A stretch of 64,000 nucleotides of DNA from Riemerella anatipestifer (GTDB lineage: Bacteria; Bacteroidota; Bacteroidia; Flavobacteriales; Weeksellaceae): positions 248,001 to 312,000 of the forward strand of contig NZ_CP073239.1 of the NCBI RefSeq assembly GCF_009670965.2, in the 5' to 3' direction. This document shows positions 4,597 through 54,333 of this stretch, in pieces (the first letter of the stretch is position 1; every line of letters begins with the position of its first letter). Below the pieces are notes generated by a model. The model did not search any database, had not been told where the DNA came from, and was given only the letters and a program-made list of their open reading frames with translations. Position numbers and translations under genes: made by a program.

Positions 4597-5005
4597 TTGC
4601 ATACTTCCTTAAAAGGTAATAAGTTTGCTTCAGTTTTATGACACACGATACCAATTACATACAAACAAGTATAAAAAAGTACCCGAATTATTTGGCTATC
4701 TCAAATAATTTCGTAAACACACACAAATAGTTTCGTGGGTATGCGTCGTATTATCTAGAAAATTACTTCAACTTTTATCGTTAATTATAAATATAATTCC
4801 ACCAACTTTCGTTGGCGGATTTTCGTATTTACACCATTCTAAATTTAGCTTTCATAAATACATGCTAAAAGCACCATTGTTTTGTCTTATAACATGGTCG
4901 TTTTTGTTAGGTGCTTTTAGCGTTCAGAGAGGGAGTTTTTACTTTCTTTCTGCTTTAGCCTTTCCTCTCGTTTTGTGTGTGTTTAGAGGGGGAAGGCGTT
5001 TTTTT
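4597..5005 (+). ncRNA. Triplicated structured leader RNA, copy 1, with its promoter
   Basis: A promoter TTG (4597-4599), N20, TAAGTTTG (4620-4627) is followed by a conserved transcribed region. Hairpins: AATTATTTG/CAAATAATT (4686-4694/4702-4710); CCACCAAC/GTTGGCGG (4799-4806/4811-4818) with a short T-run; a 12-bp GCTAAAAGCACC/GGTGCTTTTAGC stem (4864-4875/4910-4921); and a fully paired 12-bp terminator stem (4958-4969/4986-4997) followed by seven Ts. An AC repeat of four units lies at 4717-4724. An open frame from 4862 runs through the terminator into the next gene but has no plausible ribosome binding site. The element recurs at 37476 and 52401. It may be a free small RNA or an attenuating 5' leader. 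Confidence 0.8.
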
Positions 5006-5140
5006 AGGTTAGAGGTGAGATATGAGAGGTTAGAGCTTAGTATCTCCTCAACCTTTAAGTCTAGAATACAATCTCTAAAATCTAAAATCCAATATCTAAC
5101 ATCTATAAACTTTAAATATCAACTTCTAAAATTAAACATT

Positions 5141-6343
5141 ATGAAAAAAACAACCAAACTAAGTGTAGGTGCCTTTTTAGGTCTAAGTCTAATAGCTTAC
5201 GGACAAACCGAAGGTAAAGTGGGGATTAACACCTCATCTCCCAATGCTACTTTAGAGATAAAACCCAATACAACTAACTTGTTAGGCGCAACTAACGAGG
5301 GTATTATTGTGCCTAAGTTATCTAAAACAAGAGTCGCTAAGATGCCTTCCCCTCAAGAGGGAACATTAGTCTATGTAGTAGATGATGCTAAAGCAGAAGA
5401 TGGCGGTGGCACAATAGCATCTTATACTGGTACCGATGCTAGAGTAACAGATATTACAGAAAAGGGCTATTACTATTACAATGGTACCAAGTGGGTTAAG
5501 AGTGCAGCTGGCACAGGCGTAAGTAACAATATCTACACTGCCGATGGTACATTAACTGGTACTAGACGAGTAAATATGGCGAATAATAATTTGTTGTTTT
5601 TAGGAGGTAAATTAGGGATAGGGACTTCGTCTATAGGTAATGCTTTATTAACATTAGATGCTGGAGTAGAGGGAATATCTATTAAAGGCAGTCAACAAAG
5701 TGGAAACACACAATTTTCAATTTCAGATGGAGCTTTGGAGCTTTATCGTAATCCAGACGCTAATATAATAGACCCAAAGGTTTTTGGTTATACAGACTAT
5801 AAGTATAATACTTCACATGACTATAATGTGAGAATAGAAACAAGACTTTCGTCGCTAGGACAGAGATTTATCTCTTTTGCAGATAATCCCACTGGTGTAA
5901 TTGGTGCAGGAGTTAGAACTATTAACTTTAATGTGACAACAGGACAAATACATGCATCAGAGTATAATGTCAGTACAGGAGCATTTATTATACCTGATTA
6001 TGTTTTCCAAAAGTATTATACGGGGACCTCTAGCTTAAAGTCTGATTATAGCTTTAAAACATTGAACCAAGTTGAAGATTTTATTAAAGAAAAGGGACAT
6101 TTACCTGGTTATAAATCGGCTGAGGAAATTAATAGACAAGGCTATATCAATTTAGCAGAAATGCAATTGAATCATCTAGAAAAGATAGAGGAACTCTATT
6201 TACATTCGATTGAACAAGATAAAGCAATTAAATCTCAAAAAGAAGAGCTAAAAGCTAAAGATACCATTATTAAAGAACTGAAATCAGAAGTTTCTAACTT
6301 AGAAACTCGTTTACAGAAGCTAGAAGCCTTATTAGTAAAATAA
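5141..6343 (+). CDS. Secreted surface protein with KVGIN repeat and endosialidase-chaperone-like C-terminus (module 1)
   Basis: A 400-residue exported protein. MKKTTKLSVGAFLGLSLIAY is a signal peptide; next come GKVGINTSSPNATLEIKP and a GKLGIGTSS repeat of the kind found in tail-fibre-like surface proteins of Flavobacteriia. The C-terminus PDYVFQKYYTG...GHLPGY...LEKIEELYLHSIEQDK ends in a heptad coiled coil (last ~70 residues), resembling chaperone-of-endosialidase tails. The frame is open upstream to 4862, but that would bury the signal peptide 93 residues inside, so ATG 5141 is chosen. The ends are almost identical to the pseudogene at 37998 while the middle is not. The exact role is unknown. 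Confidence 0.75.
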   Translation: MKKTTKLSVGAFLGLSLIAYGQTEGKVGINTSSPNATLEIKPNTTNLLGATNEGIIVPKLSKTRVAKMPSPQEGTLVYVVDDAKAEDGGGTIASYTGTDARVTDITEKGYYYYNGTKWVKSAAGTGVSNNIYTADGTLTGTRRVNMANNNLLFLGGKLGIGTSSIGNALLTLDAGVEGISIKGSQQSGNTQFSISDGALELYRNPDANIIDPKVFGYTDYKYNTSHDYNVRIETRLSSLGQRFISFADNPTGVIGAGVRTINFNVTTGQIHASEYNVSTGAFIIPDYVFQKYYTGTSSLKSDYSFKTLNQVEDFIKEKGHLPGYKSAEEINRQGYINLAEMQLNHLEKIEELYLHSIEQDKAIKSQKEELKAKDTIIKELKSEVSNLETRLQKLEALLVK

Positions 6344-11626: not shown

Positions 11627-11670
11627 ATAAAATACTCTTCCTCCGAAAGTTTTTATTAAAATATCATTCG

Positions 11671-11832
11671 TTTGGCAGGTCTCCTGACTTTTGCATTTCT
11701 ACGCCTTCCCGCATAACAATAATACAGTGGCAATAATGTAGAAACTTTATTAAAGCAATTTACAGTTGCGGGGACAGTTCAAGACTTTCACTTGATTCCC
11801 TTTTAATTAACCCAGTAGGCTAAACCAAAACT
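11671..11832 (-). ncRNA. Cobalamin riboswitch
   Basis: On the minus strand the core is clear: AAAGGGAATCAAGTGAAAGT, then GAACTGTCCCCGCAACTGTA, a GCCACTG segment and the closing AAGTCAGGAGACCTGCC (plus-strand 11674-11690). It lies between a TATCTTTG box (11844-11837) and the btuB start at 11626. Binding of adenosyl- or other cobalamin should lower expression of btuB and the btuG-like gene. Confidence 0.95.
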
Positions 11833-11836
11833 TCGG

Positions 11837-11844
11837 CAAAGATA
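11837..11844 (-). promoter_or_regulatory. -7 box TATCTTTG of the B12 uptake operon
   Basis: A consensus box directly upstream of the riboswitch; transcription would start within the first bases of the aptamer leader. Confidence 0.6.
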
Positions 11845-33565: not shown

Positions 33566-33694
33566 ATGTTATCAAGAAAGGTGGAGGGAATAGACCCTGC
33601 GAAACCTTGGCAACCCTTCCTCATGGAAGAAGGTGCTAAATTCTACCAAAGTTTTTTGGATAGATAACATCAAGAAAATACCTCTTATTTCTTG
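33566..33694 (+). ncRNA. SAM-I (S-box) riboswitch with downstream hairpin
   Basis: The aptamer is textbook: P1 ATGTTATC/GATAACAT (33566-33573/33663-33670), AAGAAAGGTGGAGGGA, AGACCCTGCGAAACC, TTGGCAACC, and GGTGCTAAATTCTACC. Right after it CAAGAAA (33671-33677) pairs with TTTCTTG (33688-33694) without a T-run, which may be part of the expression platform; control could be translational. It governs metX-like, homoserine dehydrogenase and metZ/metB genes, shutting them down when S-adenosylmethionine is plentiful. Confidence 0.96.
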
Positions 33695-37475: not shown

Positions 37476-37898
37476 TTGCATACTTCTACAAAAGGTTATA
37501 AGTTTGCTTCAGTTTTATGACACACGATACCAATTACATACAAACAAGTGTAAAAAAGTGCCCGAATTATTTGGCTATTTCAAATAATTTCGTAAACACA
37601 CACACACACACACACACAAATAGTTTCGTGGGTATGCGTCGTATTATCTAGAAAATTCTTTGGACTTTTATCGTTAATTATAAATACAATTCCACCAACT
37701 TTCGTTGGCGGATTTTTTCGTTTATACCATTCTAATTTTAGCTTTCATAAATACATGCTAAAAGCACCATTGTTTTGTCTCATAACATGGTCGTTCTTGT
37801 TGGGTGCTTTTAGCATTCAGAGAGGGAGTTTTTACTTTCTTTCTGCTTTAGCCTTTCCTCTCGTTTTGTGTGTGTTTAGAGGGGGAAGGCGTTTTTTT
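37476..37898 (+). ncRNA. Triplicated structured leader RNA, copy 2, with its promoter
   Basis: Same layout as the copy at 4597: TTG (37476-37478), N20, TAAGTTTG (37499-37506), the AATTATTTG/CAAATAATT hairpin, CCACCAAC/GTTGGCGG followed by a T6 run, the GCTAAAAGCACC/GGTGCTTTTAGC stem, and a terminator with seven Ts ending at 37898. The AC microsatellite has grown to eleven units (37596-37617) against four in copy 1. It stands before a surface-protein pseudogene whose frame is open back to 37755. Confidence 0.8.
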
Positions 37899-37997: not shown

Positions 37998-39830
37998 ATG
38001 AAAACAAAGACTACAAAATTAAGTGTGTTAGCCTTTTTAGGTTTAGGGCTAGTGGTTTATGGACAAAGTGGTAAAGTAGGGGTTAATGTTTCCTCGCCTA
38101 GAGCTACTTTAGATGTTCAACCTAATGCAACTAATAGCCAAGGTGACGCCAAAACTAATGAGGGAATCTTAGCTCCTCAACTAAGTAAAACCCGTGTAGC
38201 AAGCATTGAGGCTCCCGTAGAGGGAACTTTAGTCTATGTAATAGATGATGCTACTAAAACCAATGGAGCTATAAGTAATTATACAGGTAATGATACCAAA
38301 GTAGCCAAAATAACAGAGAAAGGTTACTATTACTACAATGGCATAGAGTGGGTAAAATCTAGTGCGGAAACATCAGGGCAACTATGGAATAAAACAACAA
38401 GTTCTGCTGATACTTATACATATCTAATACCTGCTAACGAAACAAATGTGGATTTTGGATATAAAAAAACGAACCCAAATGTGAGGGCTTTACTTTTAAA
38501 TATGAAAAACAATAATGGTACCGCAGTGGGAGGAGGTCTATGGTTGCCTAATCCTAATGGAGTAACACCTGAGTATGGTTTTAAAAAGAATTTTTCATCA
38601 GATATTCTTCCGCTCTCTTTACCTGCGTCTAATACTATTTGGGCTCCAGGGTATACCTTTGAAGAAACAGGAATAATGATTAACGGGAGTCATACCAATA
38701 CTATAGCTTCAAATATCAGAAATTATAGAGGGGTTAACTCATCAATTACAACAAACCCTGATGTTGTTGATTTAGGAGATGTTATGGGAGTGAGGGCAAG
38801 TGTGGATTTAGGTATGGAAACGAGTTCTCAGTCAAACAGCTCTAATGTTTCAACCGTTACAACTACAACAGCTAAGAGTATAATGGGAGGTGCCTTTGGA
38901 GCAACCTCATTTTCTGTAGGAAAAGTAAATACCATAAGAGGATCTGCTATTTATTCGAATAGCTACCAAGGTGGGGAAGTAGGAAGAATGAACGCTTTAA
39001 ACACATCCACTAAAATGAAGCGAGGAGGAAAAGCTGATGTTATGGAAGGAATAACTAATGAGGTGTACACTCAGCTAGCTGATAACGGAAGTTATGCATC
39101 GTCATCAGTAAGAGCAGTAGCTGGATTAAGAAATATGGTATTTATTAATGATAATACAACCGTAACAGACGGATGAGCTTCTGCTAGGTTTGATGTTACT
39201 TTTGGCAATAATACAACTGCCCCCTCTTTTGCAGGACTTTTTTATATGCTAAAGATGGATGGTAACGCAGAGGTTGGTAGATTGTATGGAAGCAGATTAA
39301 ATACTGAGATTGCTACAACAGCTAAAGTAACAGATATGTACGGTATCTATTTGGATAATGTAAAGGCAGGAGCCGATAAGAATTATGCTATTTATACCAA
39401 TGCAGGAAAAGTTCGTTTTGGGGATAATGTAGGTATAGGGGTAGATACTCCAGCAGAAAAACTAGAAGTTGCGGGTAATGTTAAGGCAACAGGCTTTATT
39501 GGCTCTAATGCCGCTATCTTCCCAGACTATGTATTCCAAAAGTATTACACAGGTACTTCTAGTTTAAAATCAGATTATAGCTTTAAAACCCTTAGCCAAG
39601 TAGAAGACTTTGTAAAAACTAATGGGCATTTGCCAGGGTATCAGTCTGCAGAAGCTATCAAAAAACAAGGTTATATAGACCTTATGGCAACTCAACTGAC
39701 GAATGTAGAGAAAATAGAAGAACTTTATCTGCATAGCATAGAGCAAGATAAAGCTCTAAAAGCTAAAGATGCCAAAATAGCAGAATTAGAAGCTCGTTTA
39801 CAGAAGCTGGAAGCTTTATTAGTAAAATAG
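37998..39830 (+). pseudogene. Secreted surface protein, interrupted by one in-frame TGA (module 2)
   Basis: A signal peptide (MKTKTTKLSVLAFLGLGLVV), a GKVGVNVSSPRATLDVQP repeat and a C-terminus (PDYVFQKYYTG...SYSFKTLSQVEDFVK-like region, coiled coil) nearly match the module 1 protein, while the middle ~350 residues differ. A single TGA at 39174-39176 stops the frame; the same frame then stays open to 39830 with sensible sequence (ASARFDVTFGNNTTAPSFAG). Without the stop the product would have about 610 residues. Read-through or recoding is possible but a plain nonsense mutation or sequencing error is more likely. Confidence 0.75.
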
Positions 39831-39928: not shown

Positions 39929-40647
39929 ATGAATACACTAAAAGCGTGGTTGCGTCCCAACCTACTCACCAAAGATGACCCTAACGATTTTGTAGCCGTG
40001 CCACTTTTAGGTGGTAGCCTTGGTATTACAGAAATTATAGAAGCCCTCAAAAAAGAGGGTATGGAGATACAAACTGAAACGGCGGTAGATATTATCACCC
40101 ACTTTAATCGCAAAGCCTCGGAGTTGGTACTCAACGGGTATGGTGTAAATACAGGGCTGGTGTATATGCGTCCTGCCATTAAGGGTGTATTTTACGATAA
40201 GACTTGGGATAAAGAGAAACACTCCGTTTATGTGAATGTGAACCAAGGCACTGACCTAAGAAAAGCCGCCAACGATACCAAAGTGGAAATCCTTGGTGAG
40301 CAATCCAGCCCAATGAGCGTGTTCAGCATCACTGATAAAGTTACTGGCAAAGCAGACGGCACCCTTACCAAAGGCAAAAACGCAGAAATCAAAGGTACTT
40401 ACATTAAAATAGATGGCGATAATCCTAAAAATGTATCGTCTTTAAAAACTTAGACAATCAAAATGAGGTCAAGTTGGCTAAAGATAATATCGTAATCAAT
40501 GAGCCGTCAAGGGTGCTTATTCTTGTGCCTGCAGATTTGGAGGCAGGGAACTATGAACTCAGCATTACAACACAAAGCAGCACGGGTTCTGTCTTACTAA
40601 AAGAACCAAGAACGGAGAAACTACCTAATCCAGTGGTTATTGTCTAA
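39929..40647 (+). pseudogene. HU-like/DUF4469 protein with a 1-nt deletion (module 2)
   Basis: Closely matches the intact gene at 6442. Reading stays in frame to about 40430, where CCTAAAAATGTATC replaces CCTAAAAACGGTATC of module 1, one base shorter. The frame then ends early at 40453, while the +1 frame continues as NLDNQNEVKLAKDNIV...LVPADLEAGNYELSITTQSS to a stop at 40645-40647. The HU-like part is intact (about 160 residues) and only the DUF4469 part is lost, so a shortened DNA-binding protein might still be made. Confidence 0.8.
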
Positions 40648-52400: not shown

Positions 52401-52815
52401 TTGCACACTTCCGCAAAAGGTGATATGTTTGCCCCAGTTTATGCAGTACACTATCAACCACATACAAAAAAATGTAAAAAAGTTGCAAAATTATTTGGCT
52501 GTTCCAAATAATTTTGTAAACACACACACCACACACACAGAATAGTTGCGTGCGTACGCGTATTATACTACTTTTTATCTAGATTTTTATCATCAATTAT
52601 AAATAATGTTCCTCCAATTTCTGTTGGGGGCTTTTTTCGTTTATCCTATTTTAAATTTAGTTTTCATCAATATTTGCTACAAGCACCATTGTTTTGTCTT
52701 ACAACTTGGTCGTTCTTGTTGAGTGCTTTTAGCGTTCAGAAAGGTAGCCTTTGCTGTCTTTCTGCCTTAACCTTTCCTCTCGTTTTGTGTGTGTTTAGAG
52801 GGGAAAGGCGTTTTC
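52401..52815 (+). ncRNA. Triplicated structured leader RNA, copy 3, with its promoter
   Basis: The most diverged copy: TTG (52401-52403), N20, TATGTTTG (52424-52431); the AATTATTTG/CAAATAATT hairpin unchanged; CCTCCAAT/GTTGGGGG, where an A-C mismatch of copies 1 and 2 becomes a T-G pair; the GCTAC..GCACC/GTGCTTTTAGC stem partly weakened; and a terminator CCTTTCCTCTC/GAGGGGAAAGG, where a T-G pair becomes T-A. The T-run is broken (TTTTCTT), so termination may be weaker here. The AC repeat is 5+4 units. Confidence 0.75.
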
Positions 52816-52828
52816 TTATGAGTTCAAA

Positions 52829-52914: not shown

Positions 52915-52947
52915 ATTGAACCTTAAACCCTTTAAATATTATAGATT

Positions 52948-53331
52948 ATGTCAATTAAGTACAAAACCATTCAGAAAGCCCAGCCAGGTGTGGCGGGCGG
53001 AGGCGACAAAAAATTCTATGCATCGCCTGTGTATCAAGGAGAGAAAACTCTAGAGGGTCTTACCAAAGACATCGAGAAAATTTCCACCGTAAGTGGGGCA
53101 GACATTAGAGCGGTGCTTTATGCCCTCGTAGATGTGATGCAAACCTCATTATCAGAAGGGCGAATTGTAAGGCTAGGCGAACTCGGCAGTATGAGAGTAA
53201 GCCTTAGCAGTGAGGGCAAAGCTAAAGAAGAAGAGGTAACTTCGGCAGTGATTAGAAACACAAAGGTACTGTTTACCCCGGGGTCTGACCTTAAAAAGAT
53301 GCTACAAACGCTGAAGTTTGAGAAAGCCTAG
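52948..53331 (+). CDS. HU-family DNA-binding protein (HU-HIG type, module 3)
   Basis: 127 residues: MSIKYKTIQKAQPGVAGGGD, YASPVYQGEKTLEGLTKDIEK, then the HU core (DIRAVLYALVDVMQTSLSEGRIVRLGELGSMRVSL without the last part, residues ~50-85) and the C-terminal FTPGSDLKKMLQTLKFEK. This is the Bacteroidota histone-like HU-related group. It has a different domain type from the HU-like proteins of modules 1 and 2 but the same position after the leader RNA. It lies before, not after, the surface gene. Confidence 0.88.
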   Translation: MSIKYKTIQKAQPGVAGGGDKKFYASPVYQGEKTLEGLTKDIEKISTVSGADIRAVLYALVDVMQTSLSEGRIVRLGELGSMRVSLSSEGKAKEEEVTSAVIRNTKVLFTPGSDLKKMLQTLKFEKA

Positions 53332-53493: not shown

Positions 53494-54333
53494 ATGAAAA
53501 CAACAGCTACAAAATTAAGTGTACTTGCCTTTCTAGGTTTAGGTTTAGCGGTTTATGGGCAAGATTACAGTGGCAAAGTAGGTATTAACATCTCCACACC
53601 TAGTGCAACTTTGGATGTAAAATCAAAATCTTCTGCTTCAAAATCGTTTCGAGTAGAAAATACTTCGGGCACAGAAACTGTTACTGTATTAGACAACGGT
53701 AATGTAGGCGTGGGTGTTGCTTCCCCTACTGTTAAATTGGATGTTGCAGGAGCCGTAAAGATAGCGGACGGTACGCAACAAGCGGGGCGGGTGCTTACTT
53801 CAGATGCAAACGGTCTTGCCAGCTGGCAGGCTTTGTCGATTGGTAATAAAATGGCTAAAATTGTTTTGTCCAACAATAACTTTACCGTGCCTACGGTTAA
53901 AAGTGGAGGAAGTTTAGTAGCGGTAAAGGAAAAAGCTAATAATACTATTATTTATTTTGATGAAATAGGAATTACTTACAATGCAGATAAAGATGCTATA
54001 CATCTTCCACAAGGAAAATACATGTTTTTTGTCGGTCATGATATTTATGGTGCGGAATATTGTTTTTTTCAAGTTAATGAAGAAAGAAATGGAACTGTTG
54101 TAGGTACCCCTTATGCAACTTTTTATGAGGGCTGGCTGAATACTTCTTTCCCTTTAATATTGAGCCAAGATGCAGATATTAGCTTTTCTATTTTAGGTTT
54201 TGCCGATGATAACTGGGTAGATGATGGGACTTCTCGTAATTTAGCTAATCCCAATCCTCGCTTTTATCTTAAAGCTTCTGAGTATGTGAACACTTCATTT
54301 TTTAATTCTATAACCATATTGAAGTTAAATTAA
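53494..54333 (+). CDS. Secreted surface protein with KVGIN repeat and jellyroll-like C-terminus (module 3)
   Basis: 279 residues: a signal peptide nearly identical to modules 1 and 2 (MKTTATKLSVLAFLGLGLAV), GKVGINISTPSATLDVKS, a second GNVGVGVASPTVKLDVAG repeat, and RVLTSDANGLASWQAL. The C-terminal ~150 residues (VPTVKSGGSLVAVKEKANNT; HLPQGKYMFFVGHDI; SFSILGFADDNWV) look like a C1q/TNF-type jellyroll in place of the endosialidase-chaperone tail. The module 3 order is RNA, HU, surface protein. The function is unknown; cell-surface display is inferred. Confidence 0.75.
   Translation: MKTTATKLSVLAFLGLGLAVYGQDYSGKVGINISTPSATLDVKSKSSASKSFRVENTSGTETVTVLDNGNVGVGVASPTVKLDVAGAVKIADGTQQAGRVLTSDANGLASWQALSIGNKMAKIVLSNNNFTVPTVKSGGSLVAVKEKANNTIIYFDEIGITYNADKDAIHLPQGKYMFFVGHDIYGAEYCFFQVNEERNGTVVGTPYATFYEGWLNTSFPLILSQDADISFSILGFADDNWVDDGTSRNLANPNPRFYLKASEYVNTSFFNSITILKLN

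Follow-up and report, generated by a model that had tools for sequence, protein, structure and literature searches.

Dinucleotide-repeat leader open reading frames as probable phase-variable attenuators of surface-protein genes in Riemerella anatipestifer and its relatives

Introduction

Bacteroidota surface structures phase-vary through inversion of promoter DNA. Within a 64,000-nucleotide stretch of the Riemerella anatipestifer genome (hereafter the window, with positions counted from its first nucleotide), three similar sequences precede genes for surface or HU-like proteins, and an earlier note had described them as a structured RNA with its own promoter, perhaps an attenuating leader or a small RNA acting in trans. 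Here we ask what these sequences are. The switch that we propose would likewise give stochastic surface switching in the same phylum, with repeat length, in place of inversion, as the variable element. A switch of this kind is described for the Pil1 locus of Streptococcus gallolyticus, where GCAGA repeats set the length of a leader open reading frame (ORF) and ribosomes in the longer frames prevent a premature terminator; both architecture and switch are shown experimentally there (Danne et al. 2014, PMC3894217).

Results

Three leaders with a repeat-containing ORF

Comparison of sequences within the window confirms three homologous copies, at 4597–5005, 37476–37898 and 52401–52815. Each has the promoter motif TTG-N20-TAnnTTTG at the same spacing, as first described (TTG at 4597, 37476 and 52401; TAnnTTTG at 4620, 37499 and 52424), and each has the 9-bp hairpin, located within a leader ORF. 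This ORF, with its dinucleotide repeat, had been overlooked, as had a T run directly after the CCACCAAC hairpin. The other structural elements are less uniform than had been claimed: the CCACCAAC hairpin occurs in all three copies, but a pair that is U-G in copy 3 is an A-C mismatch in the other two; the GCTAAAAGCACC stem pairs perfectly over its 12 bp in copies 1 and 2, against two uncompensated mismatches in copy 3; and the last terminator has its 12 bp and T7 run in copies 1 and 2, with 11 bp and a broken T run (TTTTCTT) in copy 3.

The leader ATG lies 9–10 nt downstream of the promoter motif in all three copies, and the ORFs of 30, 44 and 34 aa (copies 1, 2 and 3) end in (AC)n tracts of 9, 23 and 10 nt respectively. 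Beyond the tract, two frames reach a stop within 5–53 nt, and the third is open across the first hairpin, the GCTAAAAGCACC stem and the main terminator. This long frame runs uninterrupted into the surface gene in copies 1 and 2, and in copy 3 it ends 28 nt upstream of the HU-HIG gene; all three copies are currently in a short frame. Matches in the window to the motif at the tract entry (at most two mismatches) number three against 0.08 expected, and those to the terminator loop TTTTGTGTGTGTTTA three against 0.00 expected. The features are as follows, all on the forward strand.

4597–4627 (+), copy 1 promoter, read from the sequence: TTG 4597–4599, N20, TAAGTTTG 4620–4627
4638–4730 (+), copy 1 leader ORF, 30 aa, current short frame
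4717–4725 (+), copy 1 (AC)n tract, 9 nt
4798–4823 (+), copy 1 first terminator-like hairpin and T run, the CCACCAAC hairpin (helix 1)
4864–4921 (+), copy 1 GCTAAAAGCACC/GGTGCTTTTAGC stem, arms 4864–4875 and 4910–4921 (helix 2, covarying)
4958–5005 (+), copy 1 main intrinsic terminator, −19.2 kcal/mol, loop TTTTGTGTGTGTTTA 4971–4985, T7 (helix 3)
4718–6343 (+), copy 1 long frame, open across both terminators after the tract and joined in frame to the surface gene (shuffle p 0.0025)
5141–6343 (+), module 1 surface protein gene, signal-peptide-like N-terminus; most listed relatives have PF26696
6442–7161 (+), HU-DNA_bdg + DUF4469 protein, after the module 1 surface gene
37476–37506 (+), copy 2 promoter
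37517–37651 (+), copy 2 leader ORF, 44 aa, current frame
37596–37618 (+), copy 2 (AC)n tract, 23 nt
37691–37718 (+), copy 2 first terminator-like hairpin and T run
37757–37814 (+), copy 2 GCTAAAAGCACC stem
37851–37898 (+), copy 2 main terminator
37998–39176 (+), module 2 surface gene, early in-frame stop; further ORF at 39246–39830
39929–40453 (+), module 2 HU-DNA_bdg protein, DUF4469 part truncated
52401–52431 (+), copy 3 promoter
52441–52545 (+), copy 3 leader ORF, 34 aa, current frame
52520–52540 (+), copy 3 (AC)n tract, 10 nt, an interruption, then more AC
52611–52637 (+), copy 3 first terminator-like hairpin and T run
52676–52733 (+), copy 3 GCTACAAGCACC stem, two mismatches
52771–52817 (+), copy 3 main terminator, broken T run
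52948–53331 (+), HU-HIG gene downstream of copy 3; long-frame stop at 52919
53494–54333 (+), module 3 surface gene, no Pfam match

In module 1 the order is leader, surface protein and HU-DNA_bdg/DUF4469 protein, and in module 3 it is leader, HU-HIG and surface protein. By eye, the surface proteins share a signal-peptide-like start and a VGIN motif. The copy 1 surface protein has 383 matches, mostly named 'hypothetical', in Riemerella, Bergeyella and Ornithobacterium, and the best 120 of these mostly carry PF26696. Module 2 looks decayed, with an in-frame stop in its surface gene (39174–39246) and a truncated HU/DUF4469 gene (ending at 40453).

No Rfam family matches the copies at gathering score; at a loose threshold copy 1 has a sole weak match, on the opposite strand (E 0.42). 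Assignment to a non-coding RNA family was thus rejected, the stems being genuine yet embedded in an ORF. The two gathering-level Rfam matches in the window lie elsewhere, a cobalamin riboswitch at 11657–11844 (−) and a SAM riboswitch at 33566–33670 (+). A transposon or other mobile-element end, a match to which the earlier note had named as refuting, is not supported either: the sites are orthologous between relatives, with conserved upstream flanks, and searches of the plasmid and phage collections with copy 1 gave no match.

Distribution of the leaders

We analysed 124 copies, 98 from Weeksellaceae and 26 from Bacteroidales. From 37 loci outside Riemerella and Bergeyella, 26 were used; six from TAE3-ERU29 were omitted as duplicates of G034, and five (L172, L184, L193, L216 and L219) because they are cut off or do not have the layout. 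The contig-end copy L029 and a few copies with a variant tract entry are also outside the 124. Shuffle and terminator tests cover 105 copies (81 Weeksellaceae and 24 Bacteroidales), 13 copies with runs of N and six with no called gene being excluded, and two leaders (L090 and L268) are too long to shuffle, which leaves 79 from Weeksellaceae. Counts of frame state take in the copies with N runs, including two (L075 and L082) of the 13 in the long frame. Some of the gene starts, which come from a script, are doubtful (e.g. L266, L278 and L201), and since the copies are related, the p-values below are not independent.

The tract-entry motif occurs 27 times in R. anatipestifer CCUG25054 (G001), which puts the leaders counted in one genome at up to 27, 18 times in G004, 13 in Bergeyella zoohelcum ATCC 43767 (G030), 12 in R. 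columbina DSM 16469 (G003), twice in G005 and once in R. columbipharyngis DSM 24015 (G002). It is absent from G006 and G013, and a reversed control motif gave no matches. G034, which has the same leaders, appears to be Weeksellaceae TAE3-ERU29; a same-genus search found 11 matches in G034, 12 in G334 and none in G335 or G336, both of which have other AC tracts. A scan of contigs with a longer form of the motif returned 93 stretches, of which the 80 listed bear organism names that we take to be Bacteroidota, and in a phylum-wide draw of 395 genomes the motif was present in one, G001 itself. The element thus seems to be concentrated in a few genera. In the variant copy L138 (G004) the AC tract is about 118 nt long. 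Just behind the tract, Riemerella, R. columbina and several Bacteroidales have in common a CGCG-rich stretch that resembles a palindrome, and then TA(A/T)TATAC. The next genes in Bacteroidales resemble, by eye, outer-membrane, lipoprotein and fimbrial-type genes.

Promoter motif, repeat length and frame

Of the 97 Weeksellaceae copies with a leader ATG, 94 have TAnnTTTG, which we take to be the Bacteroidota promoter box, no more than 60 nt upstream of it (window 3/3, G001 25/27, G004 17/17, G005 2/2, G003 11/11, G030 13/13, G334 12/12, G034 11/11, G002 0/1), as do 12 of 24 Bacteroidales copies. When a TTG 17–23 nt further upstream is also required, the counts are 83/97 (window 3, G001 24, G004 17, G005 2, G003 10, G030 13, G334 10, G034 4, G002 0) and 4/24. 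As in Pil1, an ORF thus directly follows the promoter and contains a short tandem repeat, here (AC)n, with a unit length not divisible by three; the distance from ATG to tract is fixed in most copies and the peptide is conserved.

The number of repeats varies between close relatives, again as in Pil1. Tract length differs in all 12 orthologous pairs, which come from different, related genomes and not from single colonies, have upstream flanks 89–98.5% identical and include three pairs that form one triple. The tract of copy 1 has 9 nt and that of its ortholog L074 has 27, copy 3 has 10 and L078 has 29, and L079, with 31 nt, is in a short frame whereas its ortholog L120, with 79 nt, is in the long one. 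Among 94 unambiguous Weeksellaceae copies (three more are ambiguous and one has no ATG), 81 are in a short frame and 13 in the long one, a share below one third (binomial 2.5e-5, relatedness ignored). All 13 are found among the 75 copies with tracts of at least 20 nt (p 0.003), and none among the 19 with shorter tracts. By genome the long frame is seen in 2/27 copies in G001, 1/17 in G004, 1/11 in G003, 1/11 in G034, 2/10 in G030, 1/2 in G005, 0/1 in G002 and 0/3 in the window, G334 (5/12) being the exception. The short tracts of copies 1 and 3 (9–10 nt) may be locked.

A proposed ribosome-driven switch

All of the copies are, in our view, probably leader-ORF attenuators subject to phase variation. 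Transcription would start just upstream of the short ORF that ends in the (AC)n tract, and slipped-strand copying would alter the number of AC units, and with it the frame of ribosomes coming out of the tract. Two of the frames have a stop no more than tens of bases away; there translation would end, the hairpins of the terminators would fold and transcription would cease in the leader (OFF). In the third, translation would continue across the terminators to near the start of the surface or HU gene, no terminator would form and the gene would be transcribed (ON). All three window copies are in what would be an OFF frame. From the anatomy we infer that slippage occurs in the cell, that the leader is translated, that ribosomes drive antitermination and that expression is on or off accordingly. 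In the OFF state, leader RNAs with a predicted start near 4632 would terminate after about 190 or about 370 nt and be set free, so a role of the leader RNA in trans remains conceivable.

The same working principle is suggested by the match in anatomy to the Pil1 switch. In S. gallolyticus Pil1 and Pil3 (PMC3894217), as here, a promoter, a leader-peptide ORF with non-triplet repeats and a premature stem-loop terminator precede genes for surface structures, and in Pil1 the short frame stops before the terminator whereas longer frames end near, within or beyond it. The repeat differs (GCAGA in a member of the Firmicutes, AC in Bacteroidota), and two pilus loci are described there (PMC3894217), against up to 27 leaders counted in one genome here. 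Unlike in Pil1, the long frame here extends approximately to the start of the gene and in most leaders of G034 and G334 crosses two terminators, the ATG follows the promoter box by 9–10 nt, the modules include HU-like genes and the system is predicted from sequence. We intend the likeness as 'works like', and not as common descent. Slippage in a dinucleotide repeat also shifts the reading frame of Helicobacter pylori oipA, with CT repeats that belong to the 5' region of that gene (PMC10564699); in the present leaders the repeat is in a separate upstream ORF, which in most copies ends before the gene.

The open frame, the terminators and translational coupling

Compared with 400 dinucleotide shuffles per leader (p floor 0.0025), the long frame is more open than expected at p≤0.005 in 69 of the 79 Weeksellaceae leaders and at p≤0.05 in 74; ten miss the stricter limit, and L070, L107, L118, L129 and L130 also miss the looser one. 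The ORF and tract are present in B. zoohelcum, and the frame is significantly open in seven of the eight leaders tested there. Bacteroidales leaders are short, and individually their open frame is no better than chance, with 2 of 24 at p<0.05, so that the case for that order is carried by the layout alone. Long-frame leaders occur among public predicted proteins (P0006, from R. anatipestifer, and P0004).

A hairpin of −14 kcal/mol or stronger with a T run behind it is present in 75 of 105 leaders (window 3/3, G001 18/21, G004 15/16, G005 2/2, G002 1/1, G003 2/7, G334 12/12, G034 11/11, Bacteroidales 11/24), as against 4 of 420 shuffles, and 74 of the 75 leaders have their first such terminator inside the long frame. 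In all three window copies, as in Pil1, a terminator between repeat and gene is covered by the long frame only. Only this strict scan is informative, since at a looser limit of −9 the shuffles reach 106/420. By the strict scan a strong terminator is missing from five of seven R. columbina and 13 of 24 Bacteroidales leaders, and none of the eight B. zoohelcum leaders scanned (within L061–L073) has a canonical one. The Bergeyella leaders argue against a general need for a canonical terminator, and the step there must then be Rho-type polarity or translational coupling.

Could coupling explain the whole system, with ribosomes in the long frame ending before the next gene and reinitiating there and the hairpins incidental? 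The Bergeyella leaders are consistent with this, as are a long-frame stop that in 52 of 79 Weeksellaceae leaders lies −5 to +60 nt from where the gene is called to start and an overlap of the stop with the next ATG in some Bacteroidales (L177 and L212). We nevertheless consider it unlikely, because coupling does not need strong terminators, which greatly exceed their frequency in shuffles and number two or more in 9/11 leaders of G034 and 10/12 of G334, and because the stop lies at least 100 nt before the called start in 14/79 and the frame passes far beyond the start in a further four (copies 1 and 2, L280 and L288).

RNA structure within a coding leader

The check for covariation that the earlier note had proposed was run on 40 aligned R. 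anatipestifer-type leaders. The three stems are paired in 93.9% of cells, and they covary, with a score of 0.232 against 0.169 ± 0.006 in shuffles, none of 500 scoring as high (a control weakened by the relatedness of the copies). Two-sided changes occur at 10 pairs against 7.0 ± 1.0 (2/500 shuffles as high, the copies again being related), and further pair types are about as numerous as in shuffles (119/500 as high). The covarying stems are located inside the open frame, and we read the RNA structure as genuine, probably serving termination and sharing its bases with the ORF.

These observations, together with the discrete promoter motif and terminator and with a loop TTTTGTGTGTGTTTA that is near-invariant in the 40 copies even at third codon positions, would also be expected of a structured regulatory RNA acting in cis or trans with an incidental ORF, as first proposed. 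The behaviour of the frame makes this very improbable. Relative to copy 1, 46 of 48 occurrences of indels in the 39 other R. anatipestifer-type leaders are multiples of three, the exceptions being L118, whose long frame is broken, and one sequence end; the frames are open far beyond chance; and the ORF and tract are conserved where the DNA match to copy 1 comprises the leader-ORF part only (R. columbina and Bergeyella). The three copies are real elements, but they are not primarily non-coding RNA. The term 'attenuating leader' came near the best reading and the stems do covary, but the defining part is coding, with an ORF, an (AC)n tract and one open frame. A function for the long-frame peptide was considered and has little support: mean heterozygosity at codon positions 1, 2 and 3 is 0.199, 0.204 and 0.245 in the 40 leaders, and with such near-equal variation it seems that openness is kept and the peptide itself is largely free.

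Alternatives involving the downstream protein or amino acid supply

In classical coding-repeat phase variation the surface protein would have the leader as its true N-terminus, and its frame would simply be broken by slippage. In copies 1 and 2 the long frame does read straight into the surface gene, and L280, L288 and L120 are similar (the called gene of L120, the fifth fusion, is an HU gene). With only these five fusions called among 79 Weeksellaceae leaders (copies with N runs are not all callable, and L062 may be another), the others stopping before or just past the called start, and with an ATG and signal-peptide-like start of the surface gene's own, we regard a fused N-terminus as highly improbable. 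An amino-acid attenuator, with ribosomes stalling at Thr and His codons of the tract under scarcity, is hardly credible: ACACAC does encode Thr-His in every frame and a leader peptide and terminator are present, but the genes that follow in the window encode surface and HU-like proteins, not biosynthetic enzymes (those in Bacteroidales were judged by eye), and such a device requires neither a frame open to the gene nor a tract of variable length.

Implications of a phase-variable attenuator

Among the open-licence PMC papers listed we found no earlier report of such a switch in Bacteroidota, and the leaders would be a multicopy Bacteroidota variant of the Pil1-type switch. If so, Riemerella, Bergeyella and their relatives carry independent switches throughout the genome, 27 of them in one genome; the state of each could be read from repeat length, making surface-antigen expression predictable from sequence; and the S. 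gallolyticus mechanism would extend to another phylum. For annotation, such leaders can resemble non-coding RNA or unremarkable "hypothetical proteins".

A terminator loop complementary to the tract

The main terminator loops lie at 4971–4985, 37864–37878 and 52783–52797. In copy 1 the loop TTTTGTGTGTGTTTA has its complement in the tract region, TAAACACACACAAA (4714–4727), with 14 bp between the two (−18.6 kcal/mol). Four of the five third codon positions in the loop have the same base in 39 or 40 of 40 rows and the fifth does so in 31, and since these positions too are near-invariant the loop may matter as RNA. RNAfold gives the pairing of tract and loop a probability of at most 0.022, a calculation that cannot model the pairing with the terminator formed. 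It is conceivable, and in our view doubtful, that the copies belong to a class of repeat-tuned, ribosome-driven attenuators in several Bacteroidota families that selects, with a bias to OFF, which surface-antigen or fimbrial members are transcribed, and that in addition the repeat RNA pairs with this GU-rich loop and so tunes termination without ribosomes.

The sequence TGTGTGT is present in the leaders of the window (3/3), G001 (18/21), G004 (17/18), G005 (2/2) and G003 (2/9), and in all 11 leaders of G034, another genus; it is absent from those of G334 (0/12), G030 (0/8), G002 (0/1) and Bacteroidales (0/26). The loop pattern occurs 47 times in G001, G004 and G005 together. Six extra loop copies (L009, L019, L028, L027, L144 and L149) all lie behind a leader ORF with an AC tract, which in L019 is down to a few bases.
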